This document shows, in pieces, positions 6,267 to 44,258 of a stretch of DNA of 64,000 nucleotides (positions are counted from its first letter, which is position 1; each line of letters begins with the position of its first letter). The stretch is from assembly GCA_030524345.1 (NCBI GenBank), contig JAUNGP010000002.1, forward strand, positions 62,001 to 126,000. Direction: 5' to 3'. The notes beneath the pieces are model-generated. The model was given only the letters and a program-made list of their open reading frames with translations. It was not told where the DNA came from and did not search any database. This stretch comes from Clostridia bacterium (GTDB lineage Bacteria; Bacillota; Clostridia; TANB77; CAG-465). A program made the position numbers and the translations under genes.

Positions 6267-6962
6267 CTATTCTTCATATTTTATATGTTTTTTTAGCTTA
6301 TTTTGGACTTTTGTTTCGATCCTTGATACATAGGAACGAGATATTCCAAGCTCATCTGCTATCTGTTGCTGTGTCTTTTGACTATTTCCATCAATTCCAT
6401 ATCTAAGCTGCATAATATATTTTTCTCTTTTTGGCAGTTTATTATTGATATAATCTATCACCTGCTTACTAATAACTGTATTATATATGGTATCAATAGC
6501 ATCTTTAGAATTAGAGTCTAGTGTCTCCATAAGTTCCATATCATTTCCATCTTTATCTGTCCCAATAATGGTATTCATAGATACCTCTGCTTTTTGCTTT
6601 TTTGTTGCTCGTATATACATCAGTATCTCATTATCTACACATTTACTTGCATAAGTGCTAATTTTATAACCTTTATCAGAACTAAAACTATTGATTGCCT
6701 TTATCAATCCTATTGTTCCTATTGATATTAAATCCTCCAACTCCTGTTCATCAGATGTATATTTTTTGGCAATATGTGCTACTAGCCTTAAATTATGTTC
6801 GATTAATTTATCTTTTGCCTCTTTATTTCCTTCAAAATATCTCCTTAAATAATATTCCTCTTCCGTCTTACTCAAAGGTTCTGGAAACAGATTATTATTT
6901 GAAATATATCCAAAGAGTAAATAAATATGTGATAATATATTTTGTATAAAATGAAGAAACAT
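6267..6962 (-). CDS. sigK: RNA polymerase sporulation sigma factor SigK
   Basis: 231 residues. It has region 2 (EHNLRLVAHIAKKY, then the DLISIGTIGLIKAI segment) and region 4 (QQIADELGISRSYVSRIETK, helix-turn-helix). The N terminus has a hydrophobic pro-sequence followed by GYISNNNLFPEPLS, which closely matches pro-SigK and is not found in SigE, SigF or SigG. SigK directs late mother-cell transcription during sporulation and is activated by removal of the pro-sequence. The gene is intact, with no skin-type interruption. GGAGG lies 7 nt before the ATG. Confidence 0.88.
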   Translation of the reverse strand: MFLHFIQNILSHIYLLFGYISNNNLFPEPLSKTEEEYYLRRYFEGNKEAKDKLIEHNLRLVAHIAKKYTSDEQELEDLISIGTIGLIKAINSFSSDKGYKISTYASKCVDNEILMYIRATKKQKAEVSMNTIIGTDKDGNDMELMETLDSNSKDAIDTIYNTVISKQVIDYINNKLPKREKYIMQLRYGIDGNSQKTQQQIADELGISRSYVSRIETKVQNKLKKHIKYEE

Positions 6963-10076: not shown

Positions 10077-10105
10077 TTGATTTTTTCTTAATATTATGTT
10101 ATAAT
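10077..10105 (+). promoter_or_regulatory. promoter of the OLE-like RNA
   Basis: TTGATT, 17-bp spacer, TATAAT. Transcription would begin at about 10112, exactly at the 5' arm of the closing stem of the long RNA. Confidence 0.75.
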
Positions 10106-10110
10106 AGTAA

Positions 10111-10694
10111 AGATGGTGCATTATTCTAGTTGCATAATATATTAGGAGGGTGGGGCTAAAAATCCACTAAAAGGCATACAATGAAGTTTCTTGTTTATGC
10201 GCGATACGCCCAGTATTGTGTGTATTCAGGGAGTAAAGAATTTAGGGTACAATGTAATGGCATATATTGGATATTCCCTATTTTCGCTGAGCTCTACGAT
10301 ACTTATTTTCTCGAGTATACTGTAGATATAACCTATGTTGAGTGCCAAGACACAATATGCATAGTGTAGCCTGTCTTGAGTGATAATTCGGGATTTTTGT
10401 AACGATAAATAATCTGAAAAGGCCTTTTAAGATTATTTATTAAAATGAAATTATTATTGCAAAAGAGACTAATAATATAGATTTGCATTTAAGGAAAACT
10501 TCTAGAATGTTAGATGATAAAATTCTAAGTTATTTAAGGATTAAGGTACGGATTTAAGTGGTGATCTAGTTTTCTTATAGGTGACTTGAGAATATTTCTT
10601 TTAAACGGAAACGACTAAATAGTAATATTTAGCAGGAAATAGAGAAATTCTACTAGACCTGAAACCGTAAAATTTACTTACTTAACTACCATCT
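10111..10694 (+). ncRNA. candidate OLE RNA (ornate, large, extremophilic)
   Basis: A 584-nt stretch with no real gene (the only ORF is 62 codons with no ribosome site). It begins at a strong promoter and its ends pair: AGATGGT at 10111-10117 with ACCATCT at 10688-10694. Base composition is higher in GC than ordinary spacers here. It lies immediately upstream of a gene for a four-segment membrane protein of OapA type. OLE RNAs are about 600 nt and are almost always encoded next to oapA. The identification rests on size, closing stem, promoter and neighbour; I could not run a covariance model. Confidence 0.72.
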
Positions 10695-10720
10695 ACTTTT
10701 ACTATATTATAAAAGTGAGG

Positions 10721-11308
10721 ATGAAATATAAAATGAAATATAAGTCGAAAGACTACAATGAGAAAAAAGATTCTAATATTAAATGGATTATAACAGTATC
10801 TTTAGTCGCGCTGTTATTGTCCTTATTTTTGTCTTTTACGGCAACCAAAGCAATATCCAATCTAAATATAATACTAGCTATCGTACTTTTACTTGTTGTA
10901 ATATTGATTGGTATCATATTTGATATAGTGGCCGTTGGCGTAACAATAGCAAATGAAAATAACTTTCATGCCATGGCAAGTAAAAAGGTAAAAGGAGCTA
11001 AGACTTCTATTAAACTGATTAAAAACTCTCATAAAGTATCCAATTTCTGTGCAGATGTTATTGGTGATATATGTGGTGTATTAAGCGGTACTGTAAGTGC
11101 CATCATTGCACTAAAAATCAGTAGTTACTATAACTTAACATTTGATGTTCAAGCACTTATCACTTCATTTGTATCTGCCCTTACAATAGGTGGAAAAGCA
11201 ATTGGTAAAACAATAGCTAAAACGAATAGTACTAAAATTGTCGCTTTGGTAAGTAAATTCTTAAATTTCTTTTCCAAAGACAAAAAAGCATTGAAAAATC
11301 ATAATTAA
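10721..11308 (+). CDS. oapA: OapA-like membrane protein (OLE-associated protein A)
   Basis: About 195 residues with roughly four membrane segments (WIITVSLVALLLSLFLSF near the N terminus, a second around residues 45-70, and two in the C-terminal half). The conserved middle reads FHAMASKKVKGAKTSIKLI followed by VSNFCADVIGDICGVLSG, typical of proteins often labelled CorB/DUF21-like in Bacillota and of OapA. OapA binds OLE RNA at the membrane and affects stress and magnesium tolerance. GAGG abuts the ATG at 10721; ATG at 10733 is an alternative start. It is probably co-transcribed with the RNA. Confidence 0.75.
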   Translation: MKYKMKYKSKDYNEKKDSNIKWIITVSLVALLLSLFLSFTATKAISNLNIILAIVLLLVVILIGIIFDIVAVGVTIANENNFHAMASKKVKGAKTSIKLIKNSHKVSNFCADVIGDICGVLSGTVSAIIALKISSYYNLTFDVQALITSFVSALTIGGKAIGKTIAKTNSTKIVALVSKFLNFFSKDKKALKNHN

Positions 11309-11613: not shown

Positions 11614-14199
11614 TTATTTGCCATAATATGCTTCTAGCAATATTTCCTTTAATTCACTAACAAGTGGAAGTCTTGGATTTGCAGTCGTACATTGATCTTC
11701 AAATGCTCTATCAGCTAACAAATCTACTTTATTAAGATAATCTTCCTCTTCTATTCCTTCTTCTTTGAATGATTTTGTCATATTTAATTTTGTCATTAAG
11801 TCTTGTATCGCCTGAATTAAAGAATTCACCCCTTCTTCAGTTGTACTTGCAGAAAGTCCTAGTCTTCTTGCAATGTCTGCATATCTTTCATCTGCTATAA
11901 AATACTCATATTTTGGAAATGATACAAACTTTGTAGGTTTAGTAGCATTATATCTTATTACATATGGAAGTAAAATCGCGTTTGCTCTACCATGTGCCAC
12001 ATGATATTCAGCACCAATCTTATGTGCTATGCTATGATTAATTCCAAGAAAGGCATTTGAAAAAGCCATTCCAGCAATGGAACTTGCATTATGCATCTTC
12101 TCTCTTGCAACAGTATCATTTGCATCTTTATATGATCTTTCCAAATATTCAAATACAAGTTCAATCGCTTTTATTGCAAGACCATCCGTAAAATCAGACG
12201 CCATATTAGAAACATAAGCCTCAATTGCATGTGTCAAAACGTCCATTCCTGTATCCGCTACTACTTTTGCTGGTAGAGAATAAACAAGCTCTGGATCAAT
12301 GATTGCAATAGTTGGAACTAAAGCATAATCAGTGATTGGATACTTAATGTGATTTACCTTATCTGAAATAACAGCAAATGATGTAGTTTCAGAACCTGTA
12401 CCACTAGTTGTAGGTATTGCTACCATTTTAGCTTTCTTTCCTAAATCATCTATTTTATATACTTTTTTACGGATATCTAAAAATTTGCTCTTCATTGCAT
12501 CTAAATTAACATCTGGTTGCTCATATAAAAGCCACATTCCCTTAGCAGCATCCATTGGACTTCCCCCACCAAGAGCTATAATACAATCAGGTTTGAAATG
12601 ATTCATCATTTCTACACCTTTTTTTATTGTATCAAATGAAGGATCTGGTTCTACTTCAGAAAATATTTCACAATGCGCAGGCTCTTTTCTTTTTCTTAAA
12701 TAATATAATATTTTATTCACATATCCAAGTTTCATCATAGCTTCATCTGTTACAATAAATACTTTGGAGATGTCTTTCATCACTTCTAAATATTTAATTG
12801 CACCCTTTTCAAAAAATATCTTATTTGGCACTTTAAACCATTGCATGTTAACCCTCCTTTTAGCTACTCTTTTTATATTTAATAAATTTACTGCAGAAAC
12901 ATTAGCAGTAGTTGAATTTCCACCGAAAGTACCACACCCAAGGGTCAAAGATGGCAAATTAGTGTTATATATATCTCCAATTGCACCATGAGTAGAAGGT
13001 GAATTAACAATCAATCTTCCAGCTTTCATTTTATGTTCATATTTTAATATAATATCCTTATCCTCACTATGAATAACAGCAGAATGGCCTAGTCCACCAT
13101 AAGTCAAAAGCTTACTTGCAATATTCATTGCTTCATCTTCGTCTTTTACAATATAGTATGCAAGTATTGGACTTAATTTTTCTTTAGATAAAGGATACTT
13201 ATCACCTACTCCATCTAATTTAGCAAGCAAAATCTTTGTATCTTCTTTTACTTCAATTCCTGCCCATTTAGCAATCGTATATGCGCTCTGTCCTACAATT
13301 TTAGAATTTATTTTAGAACCATTTTCATCTTTTACAATGATATAATTTTCTAATTTTTGTGCTTCCTGACTATTTAAAAAATAACAGCCTGCCTCTTTCA
13401 TTAATTTTTCAAATTCCTTTGCAATTTCTTTATCCACAATTACAGATTGTTCAGATGCACAAATCATACCATTATCAAAAGTTTTAGACATAATTAAATC
13501 TGTAACCGCTCTTTTTAATTTTGCACTTTTATTAATGTAACAAGGAACATTACCAGGTCCAACTCCAAGAGCTGGTTTACCACAAGAATATGCAGCCTTT
13601 ACCATTCCCGATCCGCCAGTTGCAAGAATTAATTTTACATCTTTATGATTCATTAATTCATTTGTAGCATTAAGAGAAGGATTTTCAATCCACTGAATAC
13701 AATTTTTTGGTGCCCCTTCCTTTATTGCTGCTTCTCTAATAATCTTTGCTGCTTCTACACTGCATTTTTGAGCAGATGGATGAAAACCAAATATAATCGG
13801 ATTTTTTGTTTTCACAGAGATAAGAGATTTAAAAATTGTAGTTGAAGTAGGATTGGTAACAGGTGTTACACCTGCAATAATACCAACAGGCTCCGCAACC
13901 ATCTCATAATCTTCTAACTCATTATTGTCTATCACACCAACAGTTTTATTGTATTTGATACTATGATAAACATATTCGGAAGCAAACATATTTTTGGTGA
14001 TTTTATCCTCATATACTCCTCTTCCAGTCTCTTCAACTGCCATTTTAGCAAGCTTCATATGATTTCCTACCGCTGCAATTGACATAGCCTTTACAATTCT
14101 ATCGATTTGTTCTTGATTTAATCCTTCGTATTCAATTTCTGCTTCTTTTGCATGATCAATTAATAATTTAATTTCTTTTTGTTCACTTGTCTGACCCAT
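11614..14199 (-). CDS. adhE: bifunctional aldehyde/alcohol dehydrogenase AdhE
   Basis: 861 residues, the usual AdhE length. The N-terminal half is an acetylating aldehyde dehydrogenase (catalytic Cys in [10 protein letters not shown], GxGNVP and TGGSGMV nucleotide segments). The C-terminal half is an iron alcohol dehydrogenase ([13 protein letters not shown], then metal ligands Asp and His in [23 protein letters not shown] and HVAHGRANA). It converts acetyl-CoA to ethanol via acetaldehyde with two NADH, regenerating NAD in fermentation, and normally forms cytoplasmic spirosomes. It has a strong upstream ribosome site and a monocistronic layout. Confidence 0.97.
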
Positions 14200-14331: not shown

Positions 14332-17300
14332 CTATCTTTTCTTCTTAGACATTTTTCTAGGCTTCTTATTATTTGAAATAAAAACAATTCCTCCAACTGC
14401 ACCTATCATCATCACTAAAAACAATATTACATATTTCCATATATTAATATCACTTGTATTTGGCAATAAAGTCTTTTTATATATAATATTGATCTCGTTT
14501 GGATCTTCTTGATAATCTATTCTTACGATTTTATCTTCTACATAATATCCTTCTTTTTCTGGCAAAACAATTTCACATATTTCACCTACATAGCCGTCTT
14601 TTTCTATTCTATCTAATACATTTCCGTCTTCATCTACTAGATTGATGATAACTTTACCTGGTATTTTTTCCATGATATATTTTACAGTTATCGTATCTAA
14701 TTCAAACACACCTTCTGTATTTTGTGGTTTTTCTTTTACTCTATAATTTCTAATTTCTTTTTCTTCTACTTTATATTCTTCATCTACTTTACCCTCTATT
14801 ATCTCTTTGAGAAGCTCATTTCCTTCTTCATCTTCATAAATAATCTCTACTTTCCCTATTTTCTTTTCATAGTAATATTCTACTTCTATTACTTCTTCTT
14901 TTAAATTACCTACTATGTTTTCAGTTGAGCCTAAATAGTTATATTTTTCAAAATTCTCTTTTTCAGTCCTATATTCTTCTCCCTCTAATCCATCAATTCT
15001 TTTTTCTTTTAATATTTCTTGAGTATCCTGATCTATATATCTAATAACTACTCCACCAGATATCTTTTTATACCAATATTTTACTACAATTCCTTCTCTT
15101 GTATAAACGCCATTTTCATTTTCTGTACTTTCTACAAGTTGATATCCATCTACTACTTTTCCTTCTGTTTGATAGTTTTCTCCTTCCAAGCCTTCTTTTT
15201 CTTCTAAATAAAGTTCTTCTCCGCTAATTTGATCTATTCCTAGTATTTGTACTTTAGATATCTTTTGATAGTAAAATTTTACCTCTTGCAAAGCTACTGT
15301 TAAAATAATTTCTTTATTCTCTGGACTTTGAACTAGCTCATATCCATCGATTTTTTTCTCCTCTAATGTAATAACATTATTTTCATTTCCAGTATACTGC
15401 TTTTCATCTAAAACTTCTCCAGTGATTTTATCTACATACTTAACAATAAGACCTTCTGATACTTTTTTATACTCATATACTACTTCAATGTTTTCTCTTC
15501 CCATCGTTCCAGTACTATTTTCTGGAACTTTTGTAACAACATAGCCACCTATATCTTCAGACTTTGTAGTATATGTTACTCCCTCTTTATATTCTTTTTC
15601 TGTTTGATTTGCAATTGCATTTCCGGTATTGGCATCTATATGTTTTATAATTACTTTTGATAATTTTCTATACTCATATGTGACTGTTATCTTTCCCACT
15701 GTCATCTTTCCAGTTGCATTTTCCGGTGTCAATACTAATTCATATCCATCTATTTTCTTTGGAATCGTTGTATACTCAGTTCCTTCCAATCCATCTTCAT
15801 GTTCTCCTGTATCAATTTCTTCTTTTGTCACTTGATCAATATACACAGTATCTACGCCTGATGATATTTTGCGATATTCATAGATAACTTCAATATTTTC
15901 TCTTCCTACTGTTCCATCTGTATTTTCTGTATTAGATATCAATTTATATCCATTAAAATTTTTTTCTTCTGTCTTGTATGGATCCCCCTCTTTATATTCA
16001 GTTACAATATTATCTATAATTGATGTACCTGTATTTTTATCTATATACTTAACCGTTACTGTTGATATCTTTCTATACTCATATGTGACTGTTATTTTTT
16101 CTACTGTCATTTTTCCAATGGCGTTTTCCGGTGTCAATACCAGTTCGTATCCCTCTATTTTCTTTGGAAGCGTTGTATAATCAGTTCCCTCCATTCCATC
16201 TTGGTGATCTCTTGTAACTATTTCACTTTTTGTTACTTGATCAATGTATACAATATCTACACCAGAAGATATTTTTCTATACCTATATACTACTTCAATA
16301 TTTTCTCTTCCTACTGTTCCACTTGTATTTTCTGTGTTAGATATAAGTGTATATTCATTAAACGTTTTTTGTTCTGTCTGATATGGATCTCCCTCTTTAT
16401 ACTCAGTTACAATATCGTTTACAATAGATGTATCTGTATTCATATCTATGTATTTAACTGTTACTGTTGATGTCTTTCTATACTCATATGTAACTATTAT
16501 TTTATCCATTGTAAAAATTCCACTAGCATTCTCTGGAGTTTTTACAAGCTCATAACCTGGAATGATTTCTGCCAATGTTGAATACTCAGTTCCTACATCA
16601 CCTGTTATTTTGTTACTTGAAATAATTTCATCTCCTGTAACTTGGTCTATATATTTGATTTCTACACCATCTGATGATATTGCTACTGGAACTACAACTT
16701 CTTTTTCGTTTCCTGCTACATCCACAACTTTAAAAGTATATTCTCCTGGTGATGTAACACTATATATCGCGTTATCGCCTGTTACTTCTCTACCATCTGG
16801 CAATATTATTTTTTCAACACCAGAAGCATCATCTGTTGCAGTAAAGTTTATGATTGCTGATCTTTCATCAATTGTTGGTTGTGTTATTTCTCCATTTCCA
16901 TTTGGCTGCGTTCTATCTATTTTATAAATACCTACTGTACGCTCTAGTAAATTTCCTGCATTATCATAAGCCTGTATATGTAAGTAATCTAAACCTTCTA
17001 CATCTATATTTAGAAGATATGATGTATCTGTTATATATTCACTCCAAACTGTATTTTCAGAAGTTTCCTGCTCACTATCGATTGCATATCTCCATTTTGA
17101 AAATCCTGAATCAGCATCACTAAATAGCAATGATACTTCTTGCATTTTTTTCCATTCACAATGAGTTGGATCAATAATTACTGCAGGTGCATCTGTATCA
17201 TCAATTACAGTAAATGATTTGGTAAATACCTCAGATTTAATTCCTTGACTATTGGTTACTACCAAGCTATATGAATAAGTACCTGTTCCTAAATCATCTG

Positions 17301-19311
17301 TGTTAAAATTAATAACAGAAGGTGTTTTTCCTGTGTAAGTGCCAACAATTACAGAACCTTTCTTTAAAGTCCATGTCCAATCAGTAATTTCATATCCAGA
17401 TGGATCATATGAAGTATCATTGATAACTAAATCTTGATATTTGGTTATCGTATTAGCACTATAATTAAAGCTTGCAACAGGACTTCCTATTCCTACATAT
17501 TTTGTAGTATAACTTGTTACTCCCTGAAAGTCTGTAACTTCTAATTTTATAACATAAATCTCTCCTTTATCAAAAGTCGTAAGTTTTCCTGGAGTCCAAT
17601 CTACATCGTTTGCCTTTTTGTAATACCAATTCTCACTGGAAATTCCATTTCCATAACCTATATCTTTATTTAAATCTAGGTCAAAAGAATTGGAAGAAAG
17701 ACTGATTGCACCATTATTAATATTAATAGAAAAGTCAGCAACTGGTCTTCTATGAGCATATACTGTTTTTACTAACTCATCATCAAAGAAAATATTATAT
17801 TCACCCGGCTTATCAAAAGTACATAATAAATCTGGTGTATAAACCTCTGTACTAGTTGATTGTCCTAAATTATTATCATAATATGTATAATTGTGATGTA
17901 TCATCCATCTACCGTTTGGAAAATCTACTGAAATAGCATTATTTTTTAATGACTCTGGTGTAACCAATATACTAGAGTCTTCACCAACTATTACATATTG
18001 TGATGAGCTCTCATTTTCAATTAATTTCTTTATATATTCTACTGTTGTATCTACGGCAGTTTCATAATCATTATTTGCTGTAAAAACTCCTTTATTGTCA
18101 TTTTTAGCTATAAAATCTTCAATAGCCACTTTATTTGTATCTGTTCCCCATTGAATGAAATGAATGTCATCATTTAGCGTTCTAGATAAAATCTCACCAA
18201 TTGTATCTGTTCCTGTTAAAGATTCATCAATTGTATCATCTACATTTACAACAATATGTTTTGCATCTTCTCTCCATGTTGGTTCTAACAATACATCTTT
18301 AAATGCTTTAGCATCAGTAGTTTCGACACTTACATCATTAAACTGAACATATGGTTGAGACCATGAAAAAAATCCATAAGAGCCACTTGGAATAGCATCA
18401 TCTGCAGTATCCGTATAATCTATTAATAATTTATCATTTTGATATATTTTTATATTATTATTCTTGCAAATAATTCTATATGATGACCAAGTATTTCTTG
18501 TCCATGTTTGAGTTGATGATGCAAGTTTTACAAAATGTGAATCAAATTTGTGTGCACTAGTAATATCTACTCCAGTTACAGGGCTTTTAGTTCCTGGATG
18601 TCCTCCAGCATCAAAGTAATAGTTTGTTAACTTATATAGTCCTGTTGGATATCCTTCTCCACCATCTTGTATAAATACATATGCAGTACATTTTTTAGTT
18701 GTATTGCTTGTCCCTTCACTTGTTATATTAAATCGAAACATACAACCTAAAACATCATTATCAGAATCTGTTGAACGTGCATTAAATGAAAATGTCATAT
18801 TTGTAGTATTAAAACCGTTTGGATCATAAAAACCTGTTAAACAAGCTGTATTTTCAGCATTCTGTATAGTATTTTTACCATTAACAGTAGTAATTGACCA
18901 TTGACCTGTTTGTCCAATTCTTCCCCAATTATCAAAGATAACAGATGCGTCCGTTGCATTCGTTGAGATGATATCTCTTTTGACAGTTTGGATCTGCACA
19001 TTGGATGTATCTAATCCATAGTCTTGAAGTCTTGCAATGATATCGCTATCAAAATTTGTCATATCTAGTTCACTATCTTTTTGTGTAACCATAATATCTA
19101 TTTTAGGATTATTAACAACATCAACTGTAACATTGGTTGCCAATTCTTGTTCATCATCAGCAAAATAACTTGCATTTGTATTGGAAGTCCTCACCACATT
19201 AGATTTTAAAAAAATCGTACCAAATATTCCTAATACCATTAGGAATAGAATTCTCCTCTTTTTGGCATATGCCTCTCTTCTTTTTTTCATATCCCCTCTT
19301 CTTTTTTTCAT
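14332..19311 (-). CDS. very large MucBP-repeat surface protein with C-terminal anchor
   Basis: 1659 residues. A basic N terminus and membrane segment (about 20-38) act as a signal sequence. Next comes a laminin-G/lectin-like domain (about 105-330), a VWA-like stretch (HIVVNVDDTIDE, about 345-440), PKD-like domains (about 500-710) and Ig-like domains (about 715-880). Eleven MucBP-like repeats of 65-68 residues (about 885-1610) follow, typified by VKYIDQ-TG and GYELV-PEN. The C terminus has LPNTS, a membrane segment and a basic tail, so wall sorting by a non-canonical sortase is possible. The role is probably adhesion to mucus or matrix. GGGGGA precedes the ATG at 19311. Confidence 0.88.
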   Translation of the reverse strand: MKKRRGDMKKRREAYAKKRRILFLMVLGIFGTIFLKSNVVRTSNTNASYFADDEQELATNVTVDVVNNPKIDIMVTQKDSELDMTNFDSDIIARLQDYGLDTSNVQIQTVKRDIISTNATDASVIFDNWGRIGQTGQWSITTVNGKNTIQNAENTACLTGFYDPNGFNTTNMTFSFNARSTDSDNDVLGCMFRFNITSEGTSNTTKKCTAYVFIQDGGEGYPTGLYKLTNYYFDAGGHPGTKSPVTGVDITSAHKFDSHFVKLASSTQTWTRNTWSSYRIICKNNNIKIYQNDKLLIDYTDTADDAIPSGSYGFFSWSQPYVQFNDVSVETTDAKAFKDVLLEPTWREDAKHIVVNVDDTIDESLTGTDTIGEILSRTLNDDIHFIQWGTDTNKVAIEDFIAKNDNKGVFTANNDYETAVDTTVEYIKKLIENESSSQYVIVGEDSSILVTPESLKNNAISVDFPNGRWMIHHNYTYYDNNLGQSTSTEVYTPDLLCTFDKPGEYNIFFDDELVKTVYAHRRPVADFSININNGAISLSSNSFDLDLNKDIGYGNGISSENWYYKKANDVDWTPGKLTTFDKGEIYVIKLEVTDFQGVTSYTTKYVGIGSPVASFNYSANTITKYQDLVINDTSYDPSGYEITDWTWTLKKGSVIVGTYTGKTPSVINFNTDDLGTGTYSYSLVVTNSQGIKSEVFTKSFTVIDDTDAPAVIIDPTHCEWKKMQEVSLLFSDADSGFSKWRYAIDSEQETSENTVWSEYITDTSYLLNIDVEGLDYLHIQAYDNAGNLLERTVGIYKIDRTQPNGNGEITQPTIDERSAIINFTATDDASGVEKIILPDGREVTGDNAIYSVTSPGEYTFKVVDVAGNEKEVVVPVAISSDGVEIKYIDQVTGDEIISSNKITGDVGTEYSTLAEIIPGYELVKTPENASGIFTMDKIIVTYEYRKTSTVTVKYIDMNTDTSIVNDIVTEYKEGDPYQTEQKTFNEYTLISNTENTSGTVGRENIEVVYRYRKISSGVDIVYIDQVTKSEIVTRDHQDGMEGTDYTTLPKKIEGYELVLTPENAIGKMTVEKITVTYEYRKISTVTVKYIDKNTGTSIIDNIVTEYKEGDPYKTEEKNFNGYKLISNTENTDGTVGRENIEVIYEYRKISSGVDTVYIDQVTKEEIDTGEHEDGLEGTEYTTIPKKIDGYELVLTPENATGKMTVGKITVTYEYRKLSKVIIKHIDANTGNAIANQTEKEYKEGVTYTTKSEDIGGYVVTKVPENSTGTMGRENIEVVYEYKKVSEGLIVKYVDKITGEVLDEKQYTGNENNVITLEEKKIDGYELVQSPENKEIILTVALQEVKFYYQKISKVQILGIDQISGEELYLEEKEGLEGENYQTEGKVVDGYQLVESTENENGVYTREGIVVKYWYKKISGGVVIRYIDQDTQEILKEKRIDGLEGEEYRTEKENFEKYNYLGSTENIVGNLKEEVIEVEYYYEKKIGKVEIIYEDEEGNELLKEIIEGKVDEEYKVEEKEIRNYRVKEKPQNTEGVFELDTITVKYIMEKIPGKVIINLVDEDGNVLDRIEKDGYVGEICEIVLPEKEGYYVEDKIVRIDYQEDPNEINIIYKKTLLPNTSDINIWKYVILFLVMMIGAVGGIVFISNNKKPRKMSKKKR
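14460..16680 (-). repeat. eleven tandem MucBP-type coding repeats
   Basis: Protein repeats of about 65-68 residues. Repeats 1, 3 and 5 resemble each other (GVxxVYIDQVT start), as do 2, 4 and 6 (TVTVKYID start, EYKEGDPY middle). The first six are therefore an older two-repeat unit of about 400 bp copied three times. Repeats 7-11 are more diverged and more charged. Confidence 0.85.
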
Positions 19312-21559: not shown

Positions 21560-21597
21560 GAAGGGCACTTCACTTATGAAATGCCCTTTTTATTTAA
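21560..21597 (+). terminator. rho-independent terminator
   Basis: AAGGGCA and TGCCCTT with an inner TTCA/TGAA stem, followed by TTTTTATTT. It ends the M23 gene and overlaps the 3' end of the convergent fucO gene. Confidence 0.85.
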
Positions 21598-22748
21598 TAT
21601 GCAGTTTTAAATATTTCTATAATATCTTCAACACTCGGGTCGCGTGGATTTCCTGGTTTACAAGGATCTATCATTGCTTTTTTAGCAAGCATTGGAATAT
21701 CTTCCTTCTTAACTCCTACCTCAGATAATTTTTGTGTAATTCCAACAGAAGCAGATAGTTTTTTTATCATTTCTATAAACTTAGCTATTATTTCATTCTT
21801 ACTCATTCCTTCTGTTGATACATTTAATGCCTGTAATATTTCTGCAAATCTATCACTACATACAGCTCCATTATACCTCATTACATAAGGAAGTAAAATA
21901 GCATTAGCAAGCCCATGAGGAGTATCATATACAGCACCAAGTTGATGTGCCATGGAATGAACAATTCCAAGGCCAACATTTGAAAATCCCATACCGGCTA
22001 TATATTGAGCAAGCCCCATTTGCTCTACAGCTACAGGATCCTTTTTATTGACTGCATCTGGTAGATATTTAAATATCAACTGAATTGCTTTTAAATGGAA
22101 CATATCAGACATTTCCCATGCACCTTTTGTGATATATCCCTCTACTGCATGTGTTAAGGCATCCATTCCTGTTGCAGCAGCCAAAGATTTCGGCATTGAC
22201 TCCATAAGTTCAGAATCCACTATAGCAATTACCGGTATATCATGTGGATCAATGCAAACCATTTTCACTTCCTCTTCCTCATTTGTAATAACATAGTTTA
22301 TTGTTACCTCTGCAGCAGTACCTGCTGTTGTAGGTAGTGCAATTAAAGGCAATCCTTTATTTTTCGTATTTGCTACGCCATTAAGTGAAACAATATCACT
22401 AAAATCTGGATTTGTCATAACAATACTAATTGCTTTTGCAGTATCTATTGCTGAGCCTCCACCAACAGCCACTATTACATCAGTTTCATATTCTTTACAC
22501 TTTATAATGCCATCTTGTACATTTTTTATAGTAGGATTTGGCTTTACTTCATCATATACCGTAAACTCTATATTTGCTTTTTCTAATACATCTGTTACTT
22601 TGGATGTAACATCAGCACCTACCAATGCTTTATCTGTTACAACAAATATCTTTTTGTAACCTCTTGCTTTTAACTCTTCTGAAAGAATCTCTCTTGCTCC
22701 TCTTCCAAAATATGAAGTTTCATTTAGCATGAATCTATTTGTACTCAT
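21594..22748 (-). CDS. fucO: lactaldehyde reductase / 1,2-propanediol oxidoreductase
   Basis: 384 residues, iron-dependent alcohol dehydrogenase family. The N terminus NRFMLNETSYFGRGA, the ligand segment ATGMDALTHAVEGYITKGAWEMSD and GMGFSNVGLGIVHSMAHQLGA follow E. coli FucO closely. It reduces lactaldehyde to 1,2-propanediol with NADH during anaerobic fucose or rhamnose use, or the reverse. The gene stands alone, and no sugar-use genes are nearby. A cobalamin-type riboswitch lies upstream on the opposite strand. Confidence 0.9.
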   Translation of the reverse strand: MSTNRFMLNETSYFGRGAREILSEELKARGYKKIFVVTDKALVGADVTSKVTDVLEKANIEFTVYDEVKPNPTIKNVQDGIIKCKEYETDVIVAVGGGSAIDTAKAISIVMTNPDFSDIVSLNGVANTKNKGLPLIALPTTAGTAAEVTINYVITNEEEEVKMVCIDPHDIPVIAIVDSELMESMPKSLAAATGMDALTHAVEGYITKGAWEMSDMFHLKAIQLIFKYLPDAVNKKDPVAVEQMGLAQYIAGMGFSNVGLGIVHSMAHQLGAVYDTPHGLANAILLPYVMRYNGAVCSDRFAEILQALNVSTEGMSKNEIIAKFIEMIKKLSASVGITQKLSEVGVKKEDIPMLAKKAMIDPCKPGNPRDPSVEDIIEIFKTAY

Positions 22749-33741: not shown

Positions 33742-36337
33742 CTTTAAATACACTTTATGTTAAAGTTAAATAACTTGCATAAACTACGCTGAAAATAACT
33801 ATGATTTATTTAAATACATCTTATGTTAAAGTTAAACCAATTCGATTAGGATTGCAACAAAATAAATTTGCATTATTTAAATACATCTTATGTTAAAGTT
33901 AAACACATATTGGAGCTTCTGCCCTACAAGGTAGACAAGTATTTAAATACATCTTATGTTAAAGTTAAACCTTCTTGGTTTTTTTATGACATCTTTATTT
34001 TCAAAATTTAAATACATCTTATGTTAAAGTTAAACGCATGTGATATTTCTATAAGAGTAAAAGCACTTGTGATTTAAATACATCTTATGTTAAAGTTAAA
34101 CTTCATTTCTTCTATTCCTAATTTTGACTGGTCATTATTTAAATACATCTTATGTTAAAGTTAAACTTAGACTTTAATTTAAATATATAGGTACAAATAT
34201 ATTTAAATACATCTTATGTTAAAGTTAAACTTTTATCAATTACGCTTTGAGAATATTGCCTTATAGATTTAAATACATCTTATGTTAAAGTTAAACGCAT
34301 ATAGTAATGTACTAGACTTGTATGTACTTAATTTAAATACATCTTATGTTAAAGTTAAACATTGTGATAAGCCTGAAGAAAATCATAAGTTGTAGCTCTA
34401 TTTAAATACATCTTATGTTAAAGTTAAACTATGAACATTATCTAGTAGTAGCTTTAAATAGTCGCATTTAAATACATCTTATGTTAAAGTTAAACTCTTT
34501 CCCATTGCACTTAATGGATCATTCTCTACACAATTTAAATACATCTTATGTTAAAGTTAAACTTATCAACAAATTTATTTGTTAAAATGTTTATTTCGAT
34601 TTAAATACATCTTATGTTAAAGTTAAACATGACTATTTTATAGTTTATTTGGTTGTGAGTTGGTATTTAAATACATCTTATGTTAAAGTTAAACAAAAAC
34701 AAATGATACGTTTGAATAATTATTTCAAATTTAAATACATCTTATGTTAAAGTTAAACTTGTAAATTGTATATCTTTTATAATTTTTAGACTAACATTTA
34801 AATACATCTTATGTTAAAGTTAAACCTTCTTTCTGCCATTTCAATTCTCTCTTTCTATCATATTTAAATACATCTTATGTTAAAGTTAAACAATAAGTAC
34901 ATACAAAACATGCAAGTGTTTTGTTGTGTATTTAAATACATCTTATGTTAAAGTTAAACAGGCATGTAGCATATCTACACGAGTAAAAGCAATTGTAATT
35001 TAAATACATCTTATGTTAAAGTTAAACGCAGAAGAATCTTAGTTCTAATTGATCTAAATACATTTAAATACATCTTATGTTAAAGTTAAACTTGATAATT
35101 CAGTTCGTGAATATAATTAAATACATTATTTAAATACATCTTATGTTAAAGTTAAACTATTTAGGATCTAAACTTTATGAAGCTTTTATGTAATTTAAAT
35201 ACATCTTATGTTAAAGTTAAACATGGAAAAATGTATAAAAATCAATGTAAAAACTGATTTAAATACATCTTATGTTAAAGTTAAACATATAGCACCTATT
35301 AAAAACTTGTAAGCATATTCATTTAAATACATCTTATGTTAAAGTTAAACTAGAATGAATGAAATTGAAAATTTAAAATTCGGAAATTTAAATACATCTT
35401 ATGTTAAAGTTAAACGGGCTGATAAAGCTTCTTCTAAAGTAGCTATAGCATATTTAAATACATCTTATGTTAAAGTTAAACAGTTAGTACAGATTGTTTA
35501 AAAAAGTTTTTTAGATTATTTAAATACATCTTATGTTAAAGTTAAACAAGAAGCACGAGGTGCATATCAAGATTATCAGAGATTTAAATACATCTTATGT
35601 TAAAGTTAAACCAATTAAAAGGTCCTATTGATTATAGAAATAAGAGGATTTAAATACATCTTATGTTAAAGTTAAACTTGCTCCCTGTATATTTGTCCAT
35701 ATATAAAAAAAGATTTAAATACATCTTATGTTAAAGTTAAACTCTTTTCGCCTATTATAACTTTATCATTTATATCCTATTTAAATACATCTTATGTTAA
35801 AGTTAAACGGAAGAATTAGGATTAGAAAAATTAGAAAATGAACTATTTAAATACATCTTATGTTAAAGTTAAACGTCTATTTTTTAGCCAAAATATCATA
35901 GCAGTAGTATCATTTAAATACATCTTATGTTAAAGTTAAACCATGGATACTTTAGGCGGTGAAGTAAAAAAATATGGATTTAAATACATCTTATGTTAAA
36001 GTTAAACGTGAATTTTTTAAAGGTACTAAATTAATATTTCTCAAATTTAAATACATCTTATGTTAAAGTTAAACTGGTTGGGAGGATAGTATAAATTATT
36101 TCAAAATGTTATTTAAATACATCTTATGTTAAAGTTAAACTGATAGTTCAACTAGGGATCTTCAAGATATAACAAATTTAAATACATCTTATGTTAAAGT
36201 TAAACTCCAAAAATATAATTGACTTTAAACTGACCATTAAAATTTAAATACATCTTATGTTAAAGTTAAACACTGCCTTTTCTATCATCCCAAATCATAT
36301 GAGCCACATTTAAATACATCTTATGTTAAAGTTAAAC
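33742..36337 (-). CRISPR. type I-B CRISPR array: 39 regular repeats plus one degenerate
   Basis: The 30-nt repeat, read on the plus strand, begins ATTTAAATACATC and ends TTAAAGTTAAAC. Regular copies run from 33808 to 36337 with spacers of about 34-39 nt. A degenerate copy (four differences) ends the array at 33742-33771. The minus-strand form begins GTTTAACTTTAAC and ends GTATTTAAAT, like other clostridial I-B repeats, giving an ATTTAAAT handle on crRNAs. The degenerate copy marks the old end, so the array is read leftward from the cas2 side. Hairpin ACAT/ATGT around AAG would be the Cas6 site. Confidence 0.98.
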
Positions 36338-36475: not shown

Positions 36476-36769
36476 TTATAAGAATATGTCTTCCGTGTTT
36501 TTACTTATATTTCCTAAATTTGTTTCTCCTATTGTTTTAAAATTCATAATTTTAACAATAGATATAAAATCTTCCTCAGGATCTATTATTTTCTTTAATT
36601 CACTTTCTAGCTCTATGATATTTGACGGCGTTATTGAACCTCTAAATACAGATTTTTGCCAATGATTTAGGTATTTTTTACATTTTTTGAATACCTTATT
36701 TACTCTTTTTTCTTTCACATCATAAAACAAAAACACATAATTATAATTTATATTTTTACTATTTATCAT
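36476..36769 (-). CDS. cas2: CRISPR-associated endonuclease Cas2
   Basis: 97 residues. The ferredoxin-like start YVFLFYDVKEKRVNKVFKKCKKY has the catalytic Asp, followed by HWQKSVFRGSITPSN typical of Cas2. With Cas1 it integrates new spacers. It overlaps the cas1 stop by 4 nt and is the last gene before the array. Confidence 0.95.
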   Translation of the reverse strand: MINSKNINYNYVFLFYDVKEKRVNKVFKKCKKYLNHWQKSVFRGSITPSNIIELESELKKIIDPEEDFISIVKIMNFKTIGETNLGNISKNTEDIFL

Positions 36770-37767
36770 TGCTTTTCCTCCATGTTAAATGGCTTGAACC
36801 CTTTATTCTCTACTATATTTTTAATTAATTTATATCCATCTAGTTTTATAGCTTGTTTATAAGAAACTTGTCTTTTTAGCTTTGCATGCTCAAAAGTATT
36901 ATTCATTCTATCTTCAAAGGCATTGATAAATATTTTCTTTCCCTCTTCATTCAGTAGCGCATAATTATATCTTTTGTCAAAATGTTTTTCTACTCTTATT
37001 TTCTTATTGTTTACTAATTCAAATATAGTTTTATAAACAATAATAGGTTTAAATACTTCGCTCAAATCTAGAGATAATGAAAATCTTGCCTCACTTGGTT
37101 CATGTAAAAATGATATTGTTTGATCTAAATGAGTGTTATAAATTTGTGATATCGTTTTGGTATAAAGTAATGTATTACCAAATGATATTAATGCATTCAT
37201 TGGATTATCAGGTGGTCTCTTTACTCTCTTATTCATCAAGAATTCTTCTGGTAGAAAATATTTAAAAGTAGCATAAAATTCTGCCCATATTTTCCCTTCA
37301 ATGGCTAGTATAGATTTGATATCATCAACTTTTTCTAATAAACTAGGTACATTATCTTTATAAAAATCTAATACTTCTTTCAATTCTTTGCTACCATGTC
37401 TATAATAATGATATAAAACAGAATGAATATTATCTGCTATTCCTTGTACGATTGCTTTTGCAATACTGTTTCTATCATTTGAGAATTTTAGGGATTGTTT
37501 GACTACTAAACTTCCACTAACCAAATTCTCTTTTGGATAAAAAGTACCAACATAATTTTCATAATAATTAAAAAAATGAACTATGATTCCAGCCTTTGCT
37601 ATAGCTTCTAATAACTTTGTGGAAAGGGTTATTTCATTAAAACAATATATTTCTTTAATATTCTGAATAGGAAGGTAGAAATTTCCTTTATCATTTTTAT
37701 ATTTAATAGAAAAATCTTTTCTGCTTAAATCACCTTTAGAAAATATATATTTACTCTCTTCTTTCAT
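36766..37767 (-). CDS. cas1: CRISPR-associated integrase Cas1, type I-B
   Basis: 333 residues. Metal ligands are in the expected places: Glu in EGKIWAEFYATFKYF, His in ISFLHEPSEARFSLSLDLSEVFKP with the Asp following. GRKG-like N-terminal strands are present (YKNDKGNFYLPIQNIKEIYCF). The Cas1 dimers with Cas2 carry out protospacer integration. AGGGAGG precedes the ATG. Confidence 0.97.
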   Translation of the reverse strand: MKEESKYIFSKGDLSRKDFSIKYKNDKGNFYLPIQNIKEIYCFNEITLSTKLLEAIAKAGIIVHFFNYYENYVGTFYPKENLVSGSLVVKQSLKFSNDRNSIAKAIVQGIADNIHSVLYHYYRHGSKELKEVLDFYKDNVPSLLEKVDDIKSILAIEGKIWAEFYATFKYFLPEEFLMNKRVKRPPDNPMNALISFGNTLLYTKTISQIYNTHLDQTISFLHEPSEARFSLSLDLSEVFKPIIVYKTIFELVNNKKIRVEKHFDKRYNYALLNEEGKKIFINAFEDRMNNTFEHAKLKRQVSYKQAIKLDGYKLIKNIVENKGFKPFNMEEKQ

Positions 37768-37779
37768 TTAATTTCCTCC

Positions 37780-38271
37780 CTATAAATAACAATATTCATA
37801 ATAAGCACATTTTTTACAACTCTTTTTAATCTGAGGTAGCGGTGGGATGTCACTTTCTAGCAAAATATTAATTTCTTTTACACAATTATTAAGTTCCTCT
37901 CTGGATTTATCATTTAATTCTATTAATTCGACTGACTCATTACTATTTTTTTCATGAAACACTAATTTTCCGATACGCCTTATTCCCTTTTCTTCTAATT
38001 TTTTTAAATATAATAATACCTGAATCCTTGCTGCTTGAATATCTGAATCACTTTTTTTCACCTCAATAACATATTTATCTGTTATTTTATCAATTGAAAT
38101 ATTATCTAATTTTATTTCAGTATTACTTTTCTCCTCCAACTTTAATTCATGTAACACTTTACCAATTCTTACATCTTCGGAATTATCCTCCAGATTAATT
38201 CTATTAGAAAATAAATAACATTTTCTTTTGCAATGATAATAATAGTTCACAATGGTTCCTGTAATTTTCAT
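37780..38271 (-). CDS. cas4: CRISPR-associated exonuclease Cas4
   Basis: 163 residues. The iron-sulfur cysteines are visible: one in the N-terminal YYHCKRKCYLF and three in IKKSCKKCAYYEYCYL. The RecB nuclease motif is DKYVIEVKKSD, with QAARIQVLLYL after it. It trims and orients prespacers by PAM. It overlaps the cas3 stop by 4 nt. Confidence 0.95.
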   Translation of the reverse strand: MKITGTIVNYYYHCKRKCYLFSNRINLEDNSEDVRIGKVLHELKLEEKSNTEIKLDNISIDKITDKYVIEVKKSDSDIQAARIQVLLYLKKLEEKGIRRIGKLVFHEKNSNESVELIELNDKSREELNNCVKEINILLESDIPPLPQIKKSCKKCAYYEYCYL

Positions 38272-40694
38272 AAAAACATCCCCTTTGAATAAGAAAGATA
38301 AGCTTGTCTATCAAATTTTCCATCAACAATAAATTCTTCTCCATTTTCTACATAATACATTCCGCCAAATTCCTCAGTATAATACATTTGTCCTTTACTA
38401 ATATATTCCTGGATATTATAAGTAAATAGGTTCATCTTTTCTCTTAGCTTTGATAGTTCAACTTGTTTTTTTGAATAAGAGATAGTATCATTTAAACATA
38501 ACTCTTTGTATGCTTCCCAAATTTCTTTTCCAATTATCTTTTTATTTTCATATTCAATTGTATAATTGAAAAATACTTGGACCGATTTATTATCAATTAA
38601 TTTCATCTTTTCAGCAACATATTTATAACTGTTTTTTCCACAAGCATCATATAAATTTCTTATATTATTACTATCATACTTTTCTGTATTTCTACCGGTC
38701 TTATTTATAACAAGATTATAATAATACTCAAAATTCTTACTACTTAAAATATTTCTCATATCACTATTTAACAAATTATATTCTAGTCTGCTATCATTTT
38801 TATATATTCGGTTTGGCTCATCCATCTTAAAAAAATATGCATAACAAGCATACTCTTTCTTACTTGATCTATTAATTCTACCTAAAAACTGCTCTTCGCT
38901 ATCAAGTATAGATATATTCTTAAAACCTACATCCATATCAATATCTACACCTGCCTCTATCGTCTGAGTAGCTATTACCAATACATCATTTAGTTCATTA
39001 ATACTTGCTATTACTTGTTTTCTAGTATAATTATTATCATCACCGGTTATTTCATATACATTTTGAAAAGTATGATCATTTTTCATCATGTTATAGAAAT
39101 TCCTCGCAGTGCTTTTTTTTATAAATTCAACTAATATTTTTTTCCCTCTATATTTTTTGATATTTTCAGCCAAATCTGATAATTCCATTTTTTTATCTAA
39201 TAACGAATACTCTATTTTTACCCTATCTCTAAAGAAAGAATGGTTATAATAAACATTTGGATCTTCAATCAAATTACAGTACTTAGAATTTGTCTCTTTT
39301 AATAATTTATCTAATCTTGGTAACGTTGCAGACATAATAACAAATTTTATATTGAGAAGAGAGGCATACTTATCTAACATTACAATAATTTCTCTCCATA
39401 TACTATTAGAATAAGCCTGAATTTCATCTATGATGACCACACTATTTATAAAATCATATAAATTATAATTTGCCTCTCTTGAAATTCCAAATAAGGTATT
39501 AAATAAGTTAATATGAGATGTCAATTTTATTGGATACATTCTAAATAAATTTTTCAAATATAACTGGTTATAATTAACATCTTCTTCTCTTTCTTCATTT
39601 TTTATATCAGTATCATTTACCATAGATGTAATAGAATTAATAACAACAAAATCTTGATATTCACAAAAATAATTGTTAAATGTTCCGGCTGTTTGTTCTA
39701 TTAAATTATTAAATGGAAATATATAATTAATAGAATTTATTTCTTCTATACTTTCATAAAAAATTCTTGAGATATTAATTGCCATATTTGTTTTTCCACT
39801 ACCGGTTGGTGCTTCTAAATAAAATATATTTTTATCCAAATTATTGACTAAATTTTTCTCAACTTCCAAAAACATATCGCATCTTAATTTATTAATACCT
39901 TCTACTTCTTTCTTTCCCTGTTCATATTTTCTTATACTATGATATAAACTAGAATCCCTATATTGACCATATAATTCCTTATCTTTATACTCACTAAAAT
40001 TTATTCTTTCGTGATTCATATACTCATAAGTAGCATAATAATCACAAGAAACAATTAGAGAATACAATAGTTTCACTAAAATATAAATTGAAATCTTATC
40101 TATTTGATATCTATTGATAAACTCTTCTATACATTCGATATCAAGCATGCCTATATTAAATATTGGCTCATACATTTCAAAGAAGTCTACTTTTTTAATA
40201 CTATCAATATACTCTGATAATGTGGTAAGCGGAGTATGGTGTCTAGCAATAGCAAAGCTAAAATATAACGTGATATATAACAAAAATGTTGTATCTGCTT
40301 CATCATATTTATTCAGAATATCTTTCATAGTGGCATCAAAAAATATAGCAGCGGATAAATTTGCATGCTTACTATCTACATTATATCCTATATCTTTTAT
40401 TTTATTGTTCATTTTTTTCTGCTGAAATACAGGATTTATTTTTCCAATATCATGATAATAAATAGAAGCTTCAAATATATCATAAGTCTTATTTAAAATA
40501 TCATCTTTAATATCTTTATAGACATCCTTTATCATATTTTTGATAATATTTTCTAATTTCTTTTCTTTCTCCAACTGTTTATAATATTTATAAGTCAGTT
40601 TTAAATGCTCAAAAAGTGATTCCTTAGAATCACCTTTTGTATGTGCATAAAAACTGTTTCCTTCTAATATTTCATCAATATATTTGTTATTCAA
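38268..40694 (-). CDS. cas3: CRISPR-associated helicase/nuclease Cas3
   Basis: 808 residues. An N-terminal HD nuclease domain (SLFEHLKLTYKYY, YYHDIGKINPVFQ, FAIARHHTPL) is followed by a superfamily 2 helicase: Walker A APTGSGKTNMA, DEIQAYSN (DExH variant), MSATLPRLD, and the motif VI region LGRINRSSK. It degrades DNA after Cascade binding. The start codon is TTG, with GGAGG 6 nt upstream. Confidence 0.97.
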   Translation of the reverse strand: MNNKYIDEILEGNSFYAHTKGDSKESLFEHLKLTYKYYKQLEKEKKLENIIKNMIKDVYKDIKDDILNKTYDIFEASIYYHDIGKINPVFQQKKMNNKIKDIGYNVDSKHANLSAAIFFDATMKDILNKYDEADTTFLLYITLYFSFAIARHHTPLTTLSEYIDSIKKVDFFEMYEPIFNIGMLDIECIEEFINRYQIDKISIYILVKLLYSLIVSCDYYATYEYMNHERINFSEYKDKELYGQYRDSSLYHSIRKYEQGKKEVEGINKLRCDMFLEVEKNLVNNLDKNIFYLEAPTGSGKTNMAINISRIFYESIEEINSINYIFPFNNLIEQTAGTFNNYFCEYQDFVVINSITSMVNDTDIKNEEREEDVNYNQLYLKNLFRMYPIKLTSHINLFNTLFGISREANYNLYDFINSVVIIDEIQAYSNSIWREIIVMLDKYASLLNIKFVIMSATLPRLDKLLKETNSKYCNLIEDPNVYYNHSFFRDRVKIEYSLLDKKMELSDLAENIKKYRGKKILVEFIKKSTARNFYNMMKNDHTFQNVYEITGDDNNYTRKQVIASINELNDVLVIATQTIEAGVDIDMDVGFKNISILDSEEQFLGRINRSSKKEYACYAYFFKMDEPNRIYKNDSRLEYNLLNSDMRNILSSKNFEYYYNLVINKTGRNTEKYDSNNIRNLYDACGKNSYKYVAEKMKLIDNKSVQVFFNYTIEYENKKIIGKEIWEAYKELCLNDTISYSKKQVELSKLREKMNLFTYNIQEYISKGQMYYTEEFGGMYYVENGEEFIVDGKFDRQAYLSYSKGMFL

Positions 40695-40706
40695 TTCTTA
40701 CCTCCA

Positions 40707-41489
40707 TTAAAAGAAAAACATGATTTCATTATTTAGTTGATATAGTTGATCTGTAGATTCTTTTATATCTAAGTCATAATTTGTAAAAACAAATTCTTTA
40801 TAGTCAATATATCCAAGTACTGAATCTAATTTGGTTGGCATTACTTCTTTAAATATAAACTTGTTTTCACTCGAACTCTTTGGTTTTATAAATGCTGCTA
40901 AATCAATTTCTTTTATTCTTTCAAATTCTATATCACAGAAAATACTATTGATTTTCTTTACTCTTTTTACATCTTCTACTCTATCAGCATTTAAAATTTC
41001 CACCTCAGAAATATCTGCGAAATGATCATTTTTTCCTAAGTACGGAATATACTCACATTTCTGATTAATTAAATATTCCTTAATCTTTTCATATTGTTCT
41101 GTTTCATTACCTAGTATATAAATGTCCCAAGAAGGATTTTCTAACCACTGCTCATCTACGATCAAAGTTGTTGGTACTTTATCATTGATATTAGCATATC
41201 CAACACTATTATTAAAACTCTGCATTCCCTTCACAAAACTTCCACTATAAGTATTAGGTTTTACCGCAATCTTGATATTACTCAAATTCTTATAAAATTC
41301 TGGTAATTCTTTTGCTTTGTCTTTAAATAGCATATTATAATTATACCCATTTTCTCCTATAATACTTCCTAATATTCCAAGTATTATAATTTTATGAACA
41401 TTATTATATGTAAAGTATATATTATTGCTTTCTGGCTTTCGAAAAATAGCACTAGCTCCTTTTAATCTAAATTTTATTACTTCTTGCAT
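40707..41489 (-). CDS. cas5: Cascade subunit Cas5 (type I-B)
   Basis: 260 residues. N-terminal VIKFRLKGASAIFRKPESN and YTYNNVHKIIILGILGSIIG follow Cas5 proteins of type I-B; a Gly-rich loop is seen around GSFVKGMQSFNN. Cas5 caps the 5' handle of crRNA in Cascade. It lies between cas7 and cas3, spaced 9-12 bp from each. Confidence 0.92.
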   Translation of the reverse strand: MQEVIKFRLKGASAIFRKPESNNIYFTYNNVHKIIILGILGSIIGENGYNYNMLFKDKAKELPEFYKNLSNIKIAVKPNTYSGSFVKGMQSFNNSVGYANINDKVPTTLIVDEQWLENPSWDIYILGNETEQYEKIKEYLINQKCEYIPYLGKNDHFADISEVEILNADRVEDVKRVKKINSIFCDIEFERIKEIDLAAFIKPKSSSENKFIFKEVMPTKLDSVLGYIDYKEFVFTNYDLDIKESTDQLYQLNNEIMFFF

Positions 41490-41498
41490 AAGAGCCTC

Positions 41499-42419
41499 CT
41501 AAAAAAGTTTGTTTATTTTATAGCTATCGTTGATTCCTACTAACTCTATACTATAATCATTATAATATAACTCTATATGATCAATTTCTCCCTTTGCGTC
41601 TTCAAGTATTGAAGTCAGTTTGCTAAAATCAATAATATCCTTTCCATCTTTAACTTTTTTAAAAGTAATATATTGATCTAAATTTGCAAGGTATAATTTA
41701 CTTTCTTCTTTACATTCAACAAATAATGCAAATTCATTTTCACATCCTGATTTACTATTGGTATTAAAAGCTGTTGCAGCTACAAGGCAAGCCTCTTTAA
41801 ATTTTTTATATGCTTCCTTTGTGTATCCAGTAAAATCTGATACTACTTCATGATAAACATCATAATTTTTAGGATTAACTGAAAATGGGTAAAAATAATG
41901 TGCTTCATCTGACACAATCTTTGTACCGATAGAACTATTTGTGTTATTCTCATTATTAGAATTTCTAAAAGGAGATAATATTTCAATTACTTCGACATTT
42001 GAATCTTCATATTTATTAAATCCTTGTCCAACTTGAACTGCTCCAGTAATTCCAATATTATTATCCTTAGCTGCAAAAGTCGCACCAAAATTCATAACAT
42101 CAATCGCAGAAAATAGATGTTTTAATACTTTTTCTTTATCCTTAATATTATTTACATCTTCTCCAAAGATCTGTTCATATCTTTCATTTAAATCTTTAGG
42201 TTGTATATTAGATTTTTCTTTTTTATATGACTTAACATATAACACTTTTTCACCATTTGCTTCCCACATCTTTTTAATTGGATATTTAAAGGCCTTATCA
42301 CTTCCAAAAATTTCATTATTAGAGGTAACTCTTGGCCTACCTGAAAAGTTAGCATTCCAGTTTGCCATTACACTTTTTATTCCTACCACACCATATACTC
42401 TATTTCTCATCTCTTCCAT
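41499..42419 (-). CDS. cas7: Cascade backbone subunit Cas7 (type I-B, Csh2-like)
   Basis: 306 residues. The N terminus RVYGVVGIKSVMANWNANFSG and the following PRVTSNNEIFGSDKAFKYPIKKMW are the RRM fold and first conserved loop of I-B Cas7. Several copies line crRNA along the spacer. AGGAGG lies 7 nt before the ATG. Confidence 0.93.
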   Translation of the reverse strand: MEEMRNRVYGVVGIKSVMANWNANFSGRPRVTSNNEIFGSDKAFKYPIKKMWEANGEKVLYVKSYKKEKSNIQPKDLNERYEQIFGEDVNNIKDKEKVLKHLFSAIDVMNFGATFAAKDNNIGITGAVQVGQGFNKYEDSNVEVIEILSPFRNSNNENNTNSSIGTKIVSDEAHYFYPFSVNPKNYDVYHEVVSDFTGYTKEAYKKFKEACLVAATAFNTNSKSGCENEFALFVECKEESKLYLANLDQYITFKKVKDGKDIIDFSKLTSILEDAKGEIDHIELYYNDYSIELVGINDSYKINKLF

Positions 42420-42430
42420 ATTGATTCCTC

Positions 42431-44248: not shown

Positions 44249-44258
44249 ATCGTACCTC

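Follow-up and report, generated by a model that had tools for sequence, protein, structure and literature searches.

To our knowledge, OLE, a membrane-bound RNA, ranks with the largest of the structured bacterial RNAs that still lack a known biochemical function. Using scores from their own model, Fernando and Breaker (2024; PMC11332333) distinguish full-length OLE (at least 390 bits) from two reduced forms, variant 1 (310 to <390 bits) and variant 2 (235 to <310 bits). Variant 1 is found mostly in TANB77 and variant 2 is assigned to RF39, clades whose members include reduced-genome microbes of the gut that have not been cultured; the GTDB survey in the same report finds the protein partners OapB and OapC largely missing from both. 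Variant 1 is also described as having shorter P7, P8, and P9 and as often missing the P13 site (PMC11332333). In the parts of the OLE literature that we draw on here, OapC (YbxF) binds the kink-turn and OapB binds P12.2/P13 (PMC9723947), and dimer contacts are placed at L4, L5.1/L6.1, and L9 (PMC12286853; PMC12265935).

Here we analyze an OLE locus in a 64,000-nucleotide stretch of DNA (the window; positions 62,001–126,000 of contig JAUNGP010000002.1, assembly GCA_030524345.1) from a clostridium that GTDB places in TANB77. We conclude that the locus probably codes for a reduced OLE ribonucleoprotein ("variant 1") whose only components, on the evidence of the genome, are OLE RNA and OapA. All coordinates are those of the window.

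Results

In a cmscan search, positions 10097–10708 (+) matched the Rfam OLE family (RF01071) over model positions 1–616 of 616, with 337.6 bits and an E value of 1.7e-95; the match clears the gathering score of 50 bits over the whole model, and it is the only copy in the genome. An earlier note, made from the letters of this DNA, had proposed a 584-nt promoter-driven RNA with pairing ends, resembling OLE, at positions 10111–10694. Its identity is borne out by the Rfam model and its coordinates hold, with the likely extent of the RNA (~10111–10694, +) lying inside the Rfam match. A sigma-A type promoter can be read from the sequence at 10077–10105 (+), with TTGATT at 10077–10082 and TATAAT at 10100–10105 separated by a 17-bp spacer, and this layout (TTG..., 17 bp, TATAAT) is common to all 16 OLE loci of the genus with a complete 5′ end. 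The ends of the RNA pair to form P1, in which GAUGGU (10112–10117, +) faces ACCAUC (10688–10693, +); on 16 sequences, 92.7% of P1 cells are paired and three of the six pairs show changes on both sides.

Immediately downstream, where the earlier note had placed an OapA-type membrane gene, lies oapA (OLE-associated protein A; 10733–11308, +), which encodes a CNNM-like membrane protein. The longest frame starts at a GTG (10715–11308), and the N termini of homologues indicate that the start is likely the ATG at 10733, giving a protein of 191 amino acids. The match of the protein to the Pfam CNNM family is weak (E = 5.7e-6) and falls below the curated cut-off. Its AlphaFold model (mean pLDDT 82.4) aligns to the CNNM domain of MtCorB (7m1t_A) with a Z score of 14.2 and an rmsd of 2.3 over 129 residues, and OapA is thus predicted to share the CNNM Mg2+-transporter fold, as has been published for H. 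halodurans OapA (PMC11332333). The DxxxD motif that distinguishes OapA from CNNM proteins (PMC11332333) reads DVIGD in the window protein, and its acidic residues are invariant in an alignment of 17 OapA sequences. The genome has a separate CNNM-CBS type gene, on contig C37.

OLE is present in 17 of the 28 genomes of the genus (in one, G010, it runs off the contig end), and OapA is present in the same 17. Four of these (G017, G018, G026, and G003; loci L051, L052, L053, and L054) make up a second OLE/OapA lineage, lineage II, with other gene neighborhoods and OapA proteins that are 36–39% identical to the window OapA over the alignment. All 17 have ole immediately before oapA in the same orientation, an arrangement that would also be expected if OLE RNA were a mere long leader regulating oapA in cis. 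We regard a leader as highly improbable: the ends of the RNA pair in P1, the dimer loops described below are kept although a leader has no need of them, H. halodurans makes OLE as an abundant RNA of its own (PMC9723947), and one relative (L078) has ~1.1 kb between OLE and oapA.

The 16 complete OLE copies of the genus score 326.9–390 bits with the Rfam model. The 337.6 bits of the window copy fall inside the 310–390 band of variant 1, in a comparison that sets a score from the Rfam model against a band defined with the authors' model. The region from J6/7 to P7 measures 41 nt, against a median of 52, whereas P8 (43 nt) and P9 (99 nt) equal their medians of 43 and 99. Beyond the genus, OLE occurs in 290 of the 398 genomes of our phylum sample and, within the same class, in 3 of the 16 other genomes listed. 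The expectation in the earlier note that OLE in such a bacterium would widen the known range has been overtaken by this breadth and by the prior description of variant 1 in TANB77 gut bacteria (PMC11332333). An OapA-like gene also lies at L132:6001–6516, with no OLE within its 11.9-kb locus.

We searched the genus for the two remaining partners, as the earlier note had proposed, and found neither. A profile search detected OapB in none of the 28 genus genomes and, as a positive control, in 38 of 45 other OLE genomes; the profile has two rows, a hand-written consensus and the solved OapB 7k9b, which is also the best PDB match of that consensus. The L7Ae family, which includes OapC, scored above the cut-off in none of the 28 genomes, whereas 386 of the 398 phylum-sample genomes had such a hit, and the single stretch seen below the cut-off, in G000, reached 17.8 bits and contains 5 stops. 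Among the 290 OLE-bearing genomes of the phylum sample, G000 and G039 are the only ones without L7Ae. All of these genomes are drafts, yet gaps do not plausibly explain an absence from all 28. The earlier note would have taken an OapA gene lacking its known partners as grounds to reject OLE. OapB and OapC were indeed not found, but OLE stands, since the partner-less state is the published state of variant 1.

Because OapB and OapC are essential in H. halodurans (PMC11332333; PMC9723947; PMC12054373), it is plausible that unrelated proteins stand in for them here in a complete OLE particle. We consider such replacement unlikely. No candidate was seen, both proteins are held in the literature to be dispensable in certain species (PMC11332333), and the P13 tip that OapB binds is altered in this RNA, which suggests that the site has been free to change. 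We therefore continue to favor a particle made of OLE RNA and OapA.

To compare individual sites, we aligned 108 OLE sequences, 17 from the genus and 91 others, using Rfam numbering, which coincides with that of H. halodurans at the kink-turn (U84 and C85 as in PMC9723947). The 91 comparison sequences are a non-random set made up of the 30 best-scoring of 290, 21 chosen copies (mostly low-scoring or of the same class), and 40 picked from among those listed; OapB presence was checked for 45 of the 91 genomes. Every published dimer loop is present, at the level of sequence, in the window copy. The A-rich L4 loop, CUAAAAAUC (10156–10164, +), is identical in all 16 genus sequences that cover it, and the kissing loop L5.1 (CGCCCAG, 10207–10213, +), its partner L6.1 (GGCAU, 10259–10263, +), and the L9 kissing palindrome GGCC (10421–10424, +) are each found in 17 of 17.

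The kink-turn, which the earlier note had assigned to OapB, is the OapC (YbxF) site (PMC9723947). It can take two forms, 1a with C-helix pairs 85–144 and 84–145 and 1b with pairs 85–196 and 84–197. Its 5′ part in the window copy (C85, bulge AAU, and GAAG, in J4a/5) lies at 10179–10186 (+), and the other half of form 1b, G194-A195-G196 in J6/7 (10289–10291, +), is found in 17 of 17 genus sequences. The core pair C85–G196 and the tandem G–A pairs are retained and the second C-helix pair is gone; because column 84 is deleted, neither form has two C-helix pairs in this copy, which in this respect counts with the weaker copies of the genus. Across the genus, form 1b is kept in 15 of 17 sequences (73 of 91 elsewhere) and form 1a in only one (75 of 91 elsewhere). 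We considered and rejected kink-turn decay as a general consequence of OapC loss. G039, which has OLE without L7Ae, kept form 1a and lost form 1b, and both forms persist in 48 of 75 named relatives from the wider clade. Since G039 and most of these relatives do not follow the pattern, OapC loss does not, as a rule, explain the loss of form 1a.

At the tip of P13 the window copy carries A-GUAA-U (10621–10626, +), where OapB-bearing genomes have G-GNRA-C. The latter is present in 38 of 38 OapB-bearing genomes and in none of the 13 lineage I members of the genus, window included. Five of seven other OapB-less genomes also have G-GNRA-C (the exceptions are G242 and G380). The named relatives are metagenome-assembled genomes, and several of their titles mention gut sites or animals. 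Of 80 named-relative loci, five were left out (three because the upstream 1 kb contained no OLE and two because it contained just a fragment), and the remaining 75, with OLE at full length, include five re-finds of genus genomes (G021, G016, G004, G006, and G014). Since 68 of these 75 carry A-GNRA-U at the P13 tip, we take it to be a mark of the wider clade, a distribution consistent with the frequent lack of the P13 site in variant 1 (PMC11332333). The P12.2 tip, G-GUGA-C in the window copy (10580–10585, +), is found in 13 of 13 lineage I sequences and in none of the four of lineage II, and 36 of the 38 OapB-bearing genomes have G-GNRA-C at this position. Lineage II has lost the P12.2 hairpin and kept G-GNRA-C at P13 in all four members. 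There is no strict link between the P12.2 tip and OapB.

On a covariation alignment of 16 genus sequences, for which the structure was that of Rfam with P1 added, standard pairs filled 85.2% of cells, compared with 75.7% after shuffling. Pairs changed on both sides numbered 74 versus 46 in shuffled alignments, with none of 500 shuffles as high, and pairing fell to 41–48% when partners were slid. The OLE structure covaries strongly in the genus and is under selection. The 3′ domain (helices 17–22) is best kept, with 86–100% pairing across the genus, and pairing is weakest in P7, P8, and parts of P9.

How did the ole-oapA cassette come to be present in some members of the genus and missing from others? 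When 26 of the 28 genomes are placed on an rpoB tree, the "no OLE" state needs six changes, five of them forced by well-supported branches, and the cassette has therefore been gained or lost repeatedly. Of the genomes sampled, G007 stands closest to the window genome on this tree, and it lacks both ole and oapA. In three OLE-free genomes of one clade (G008, G009, and G013), the two genes that bracket ole-oapA in their sisters, an MBL-fold gene and a DUF3137 gene, are separated by ~107–116 bp with nothing between them, compared with ~1.35–1.45 kb in sisters that have the cassette at this site and no further insertion. These three genomes, of the 11 in the genus without OLE, display a clean empty site of ole-oapA.

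Such patchiness could mean that OLE is being lost across the genus and that the window copy is a decaying relic on its way out. Both genes are absent from 11 of the 28 genomes, the well-supported branches of the rpoB tree require at least five changes, and the window copy has lost a kink-turn base. We find this reading quite improbable, as the promoter, dimer loops, and oapA frame are intact and the substitutions covary; in a relic, long-range pairs would not survive sequence drift. The reduced OLE ribonucleoprotein remains the interpretation that we prefer.

Other features of the window and of the neighboring genes were also considered. Nine of the 17 OLE genomes have a CNNM-CBS gene ~3.8–5.5 kb downstream of OLE, and we rejected a link between MpfA/CNNM-CBS proteins and OLE on this basis. 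The proximity is no evidence of such a link because it reflects gene order shared within one clade, OLE-free members included, and because the gene (at loci L039–L047, L058, L277, and L278) has no CorC_HlyC match and lies a few kb from the ole-oapA site even where the cassette is missing. The published anticorrelation of MpfA and OLE is absent in this genus: full CNNM hits occur in 17 of 17 OLE genomes and in 10 of 11 OLE-free genomes, one of these ten hits being cut by a contig end.

A SigK-like sporulation sigma factor is encoded near OLE at 6267–6962 (−), and its place upstream of the RNA is kept in most of lineage I. Sporulation was rejected as an explanation of OLE presence, as 27 of the 28 genomes, with or without OLE, have a SpoIVA hit above the cut-off. 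In H. halodurans, alcohol tolerance has been associated with OLE. An AdhE-type aldehyde/alcohol dehydrogenase is encoded directly downstream of oapA (11614–14199), and a second, iron-type alcohol dehydrogenase is found ~10 kb further (21594–22748, −). AdhE beside OLE was set aside as a sign of an alcohol link, as, of the 17 OLE loci, the one in the window genome alone has this neighbor. The mucin-binding surface gene of the earlier note is present as a protein of 1659 amino acids with ten MucBP repeats (14332–19311, −). The window also holds a Type I-B CRISPR-Cas system (33808–36337 and 36766–44939), with 39 repeat hits that adjoin genes matching Cas1b, Cas3b, Cas5b, Cas7b, Cas8b, and Cas6b.

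Discussion

Direct evidence at this locus comes from the identity of the RNA, its conserved promoter, the covariation of its structure, the dimer loops, the pairing of ole with oapA, and the failure to find OapB or OapC in the genus. How might such a particle work? The ole gene would be transcribed from its own sigma-A promoter, and the RNA may fold and dimerize through the published loop contacts. By analogy with H. halodurans, OapA, as a CNNM-like membrane protein, could hold the RNA at the membrane, where the particle may help the cell withstand stresses such as divalent metal, alcohol, cold, or a poor carbon source.

Both OLE as a class and its occurrence in gut bacteria have been published before, and the comparison of presence and absence within one genus is a useful new addition. 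In the passages of the OLE literature that we consulted, PMC11332333 included, we found no statement on loss of an ole-oapA cassette from a precise site and no dimer-loop counts for genomes without the protein partners. One possibility, which we offer tentatively and do not hold to be probable, is that the genus is a natural experiment in which a two-part particle of RNA and OapA suffices for a function under selection. On this view, the dimer loops and 3′ domain would persist without OapB and OapC, form 1a of the kink-turn would be dispensable and the protein-free form 1b kept, and ole-oapA would be gained or lost as a unit. Lineages that have the RNA and OapA but not OapB and OapC can reveal which RNA elements are indispensable by themselves; in this genus, it is the dimer loops and 3′ domain that are kept. 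If any of these bacteria can be cultured, sister species with and without the cassette would provide a comparison.

Among known systems, MpfA and other CNNM-CBS Mg2+ transporters have the CNNM fold in common with OapA, as judged from the model (Z score 14.2), but OapA carries the DxxxD motif and is without a CBS domain. With the full-length OLE of H. halodurans, C. acetobutylicum, and C. botulinum, the window copy shares the whole of RF01071, the order of promoter, ole, and oapA, the dimer loops, and the 3′ domain. It differs from full-length OLE in its shorter P7, altered P13 tip, and weak kink-turn, and its genome differs from those of full-length OLE hosts in that no OapB or OapC was found. 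The closest likeness is to OLE variant 1 as described in PMC11332333, which the window copy resembles in its altered P13 tip, absence of OapB and OapC, and small-genome relatives from gut samples and, so far as an Rfam score can be set against the authors' band, in score, although its P9 is not shorter. The window copy, the scores of its genus, and the loss of its partners fit variant 1, an already described reduced branch of the OLE family.
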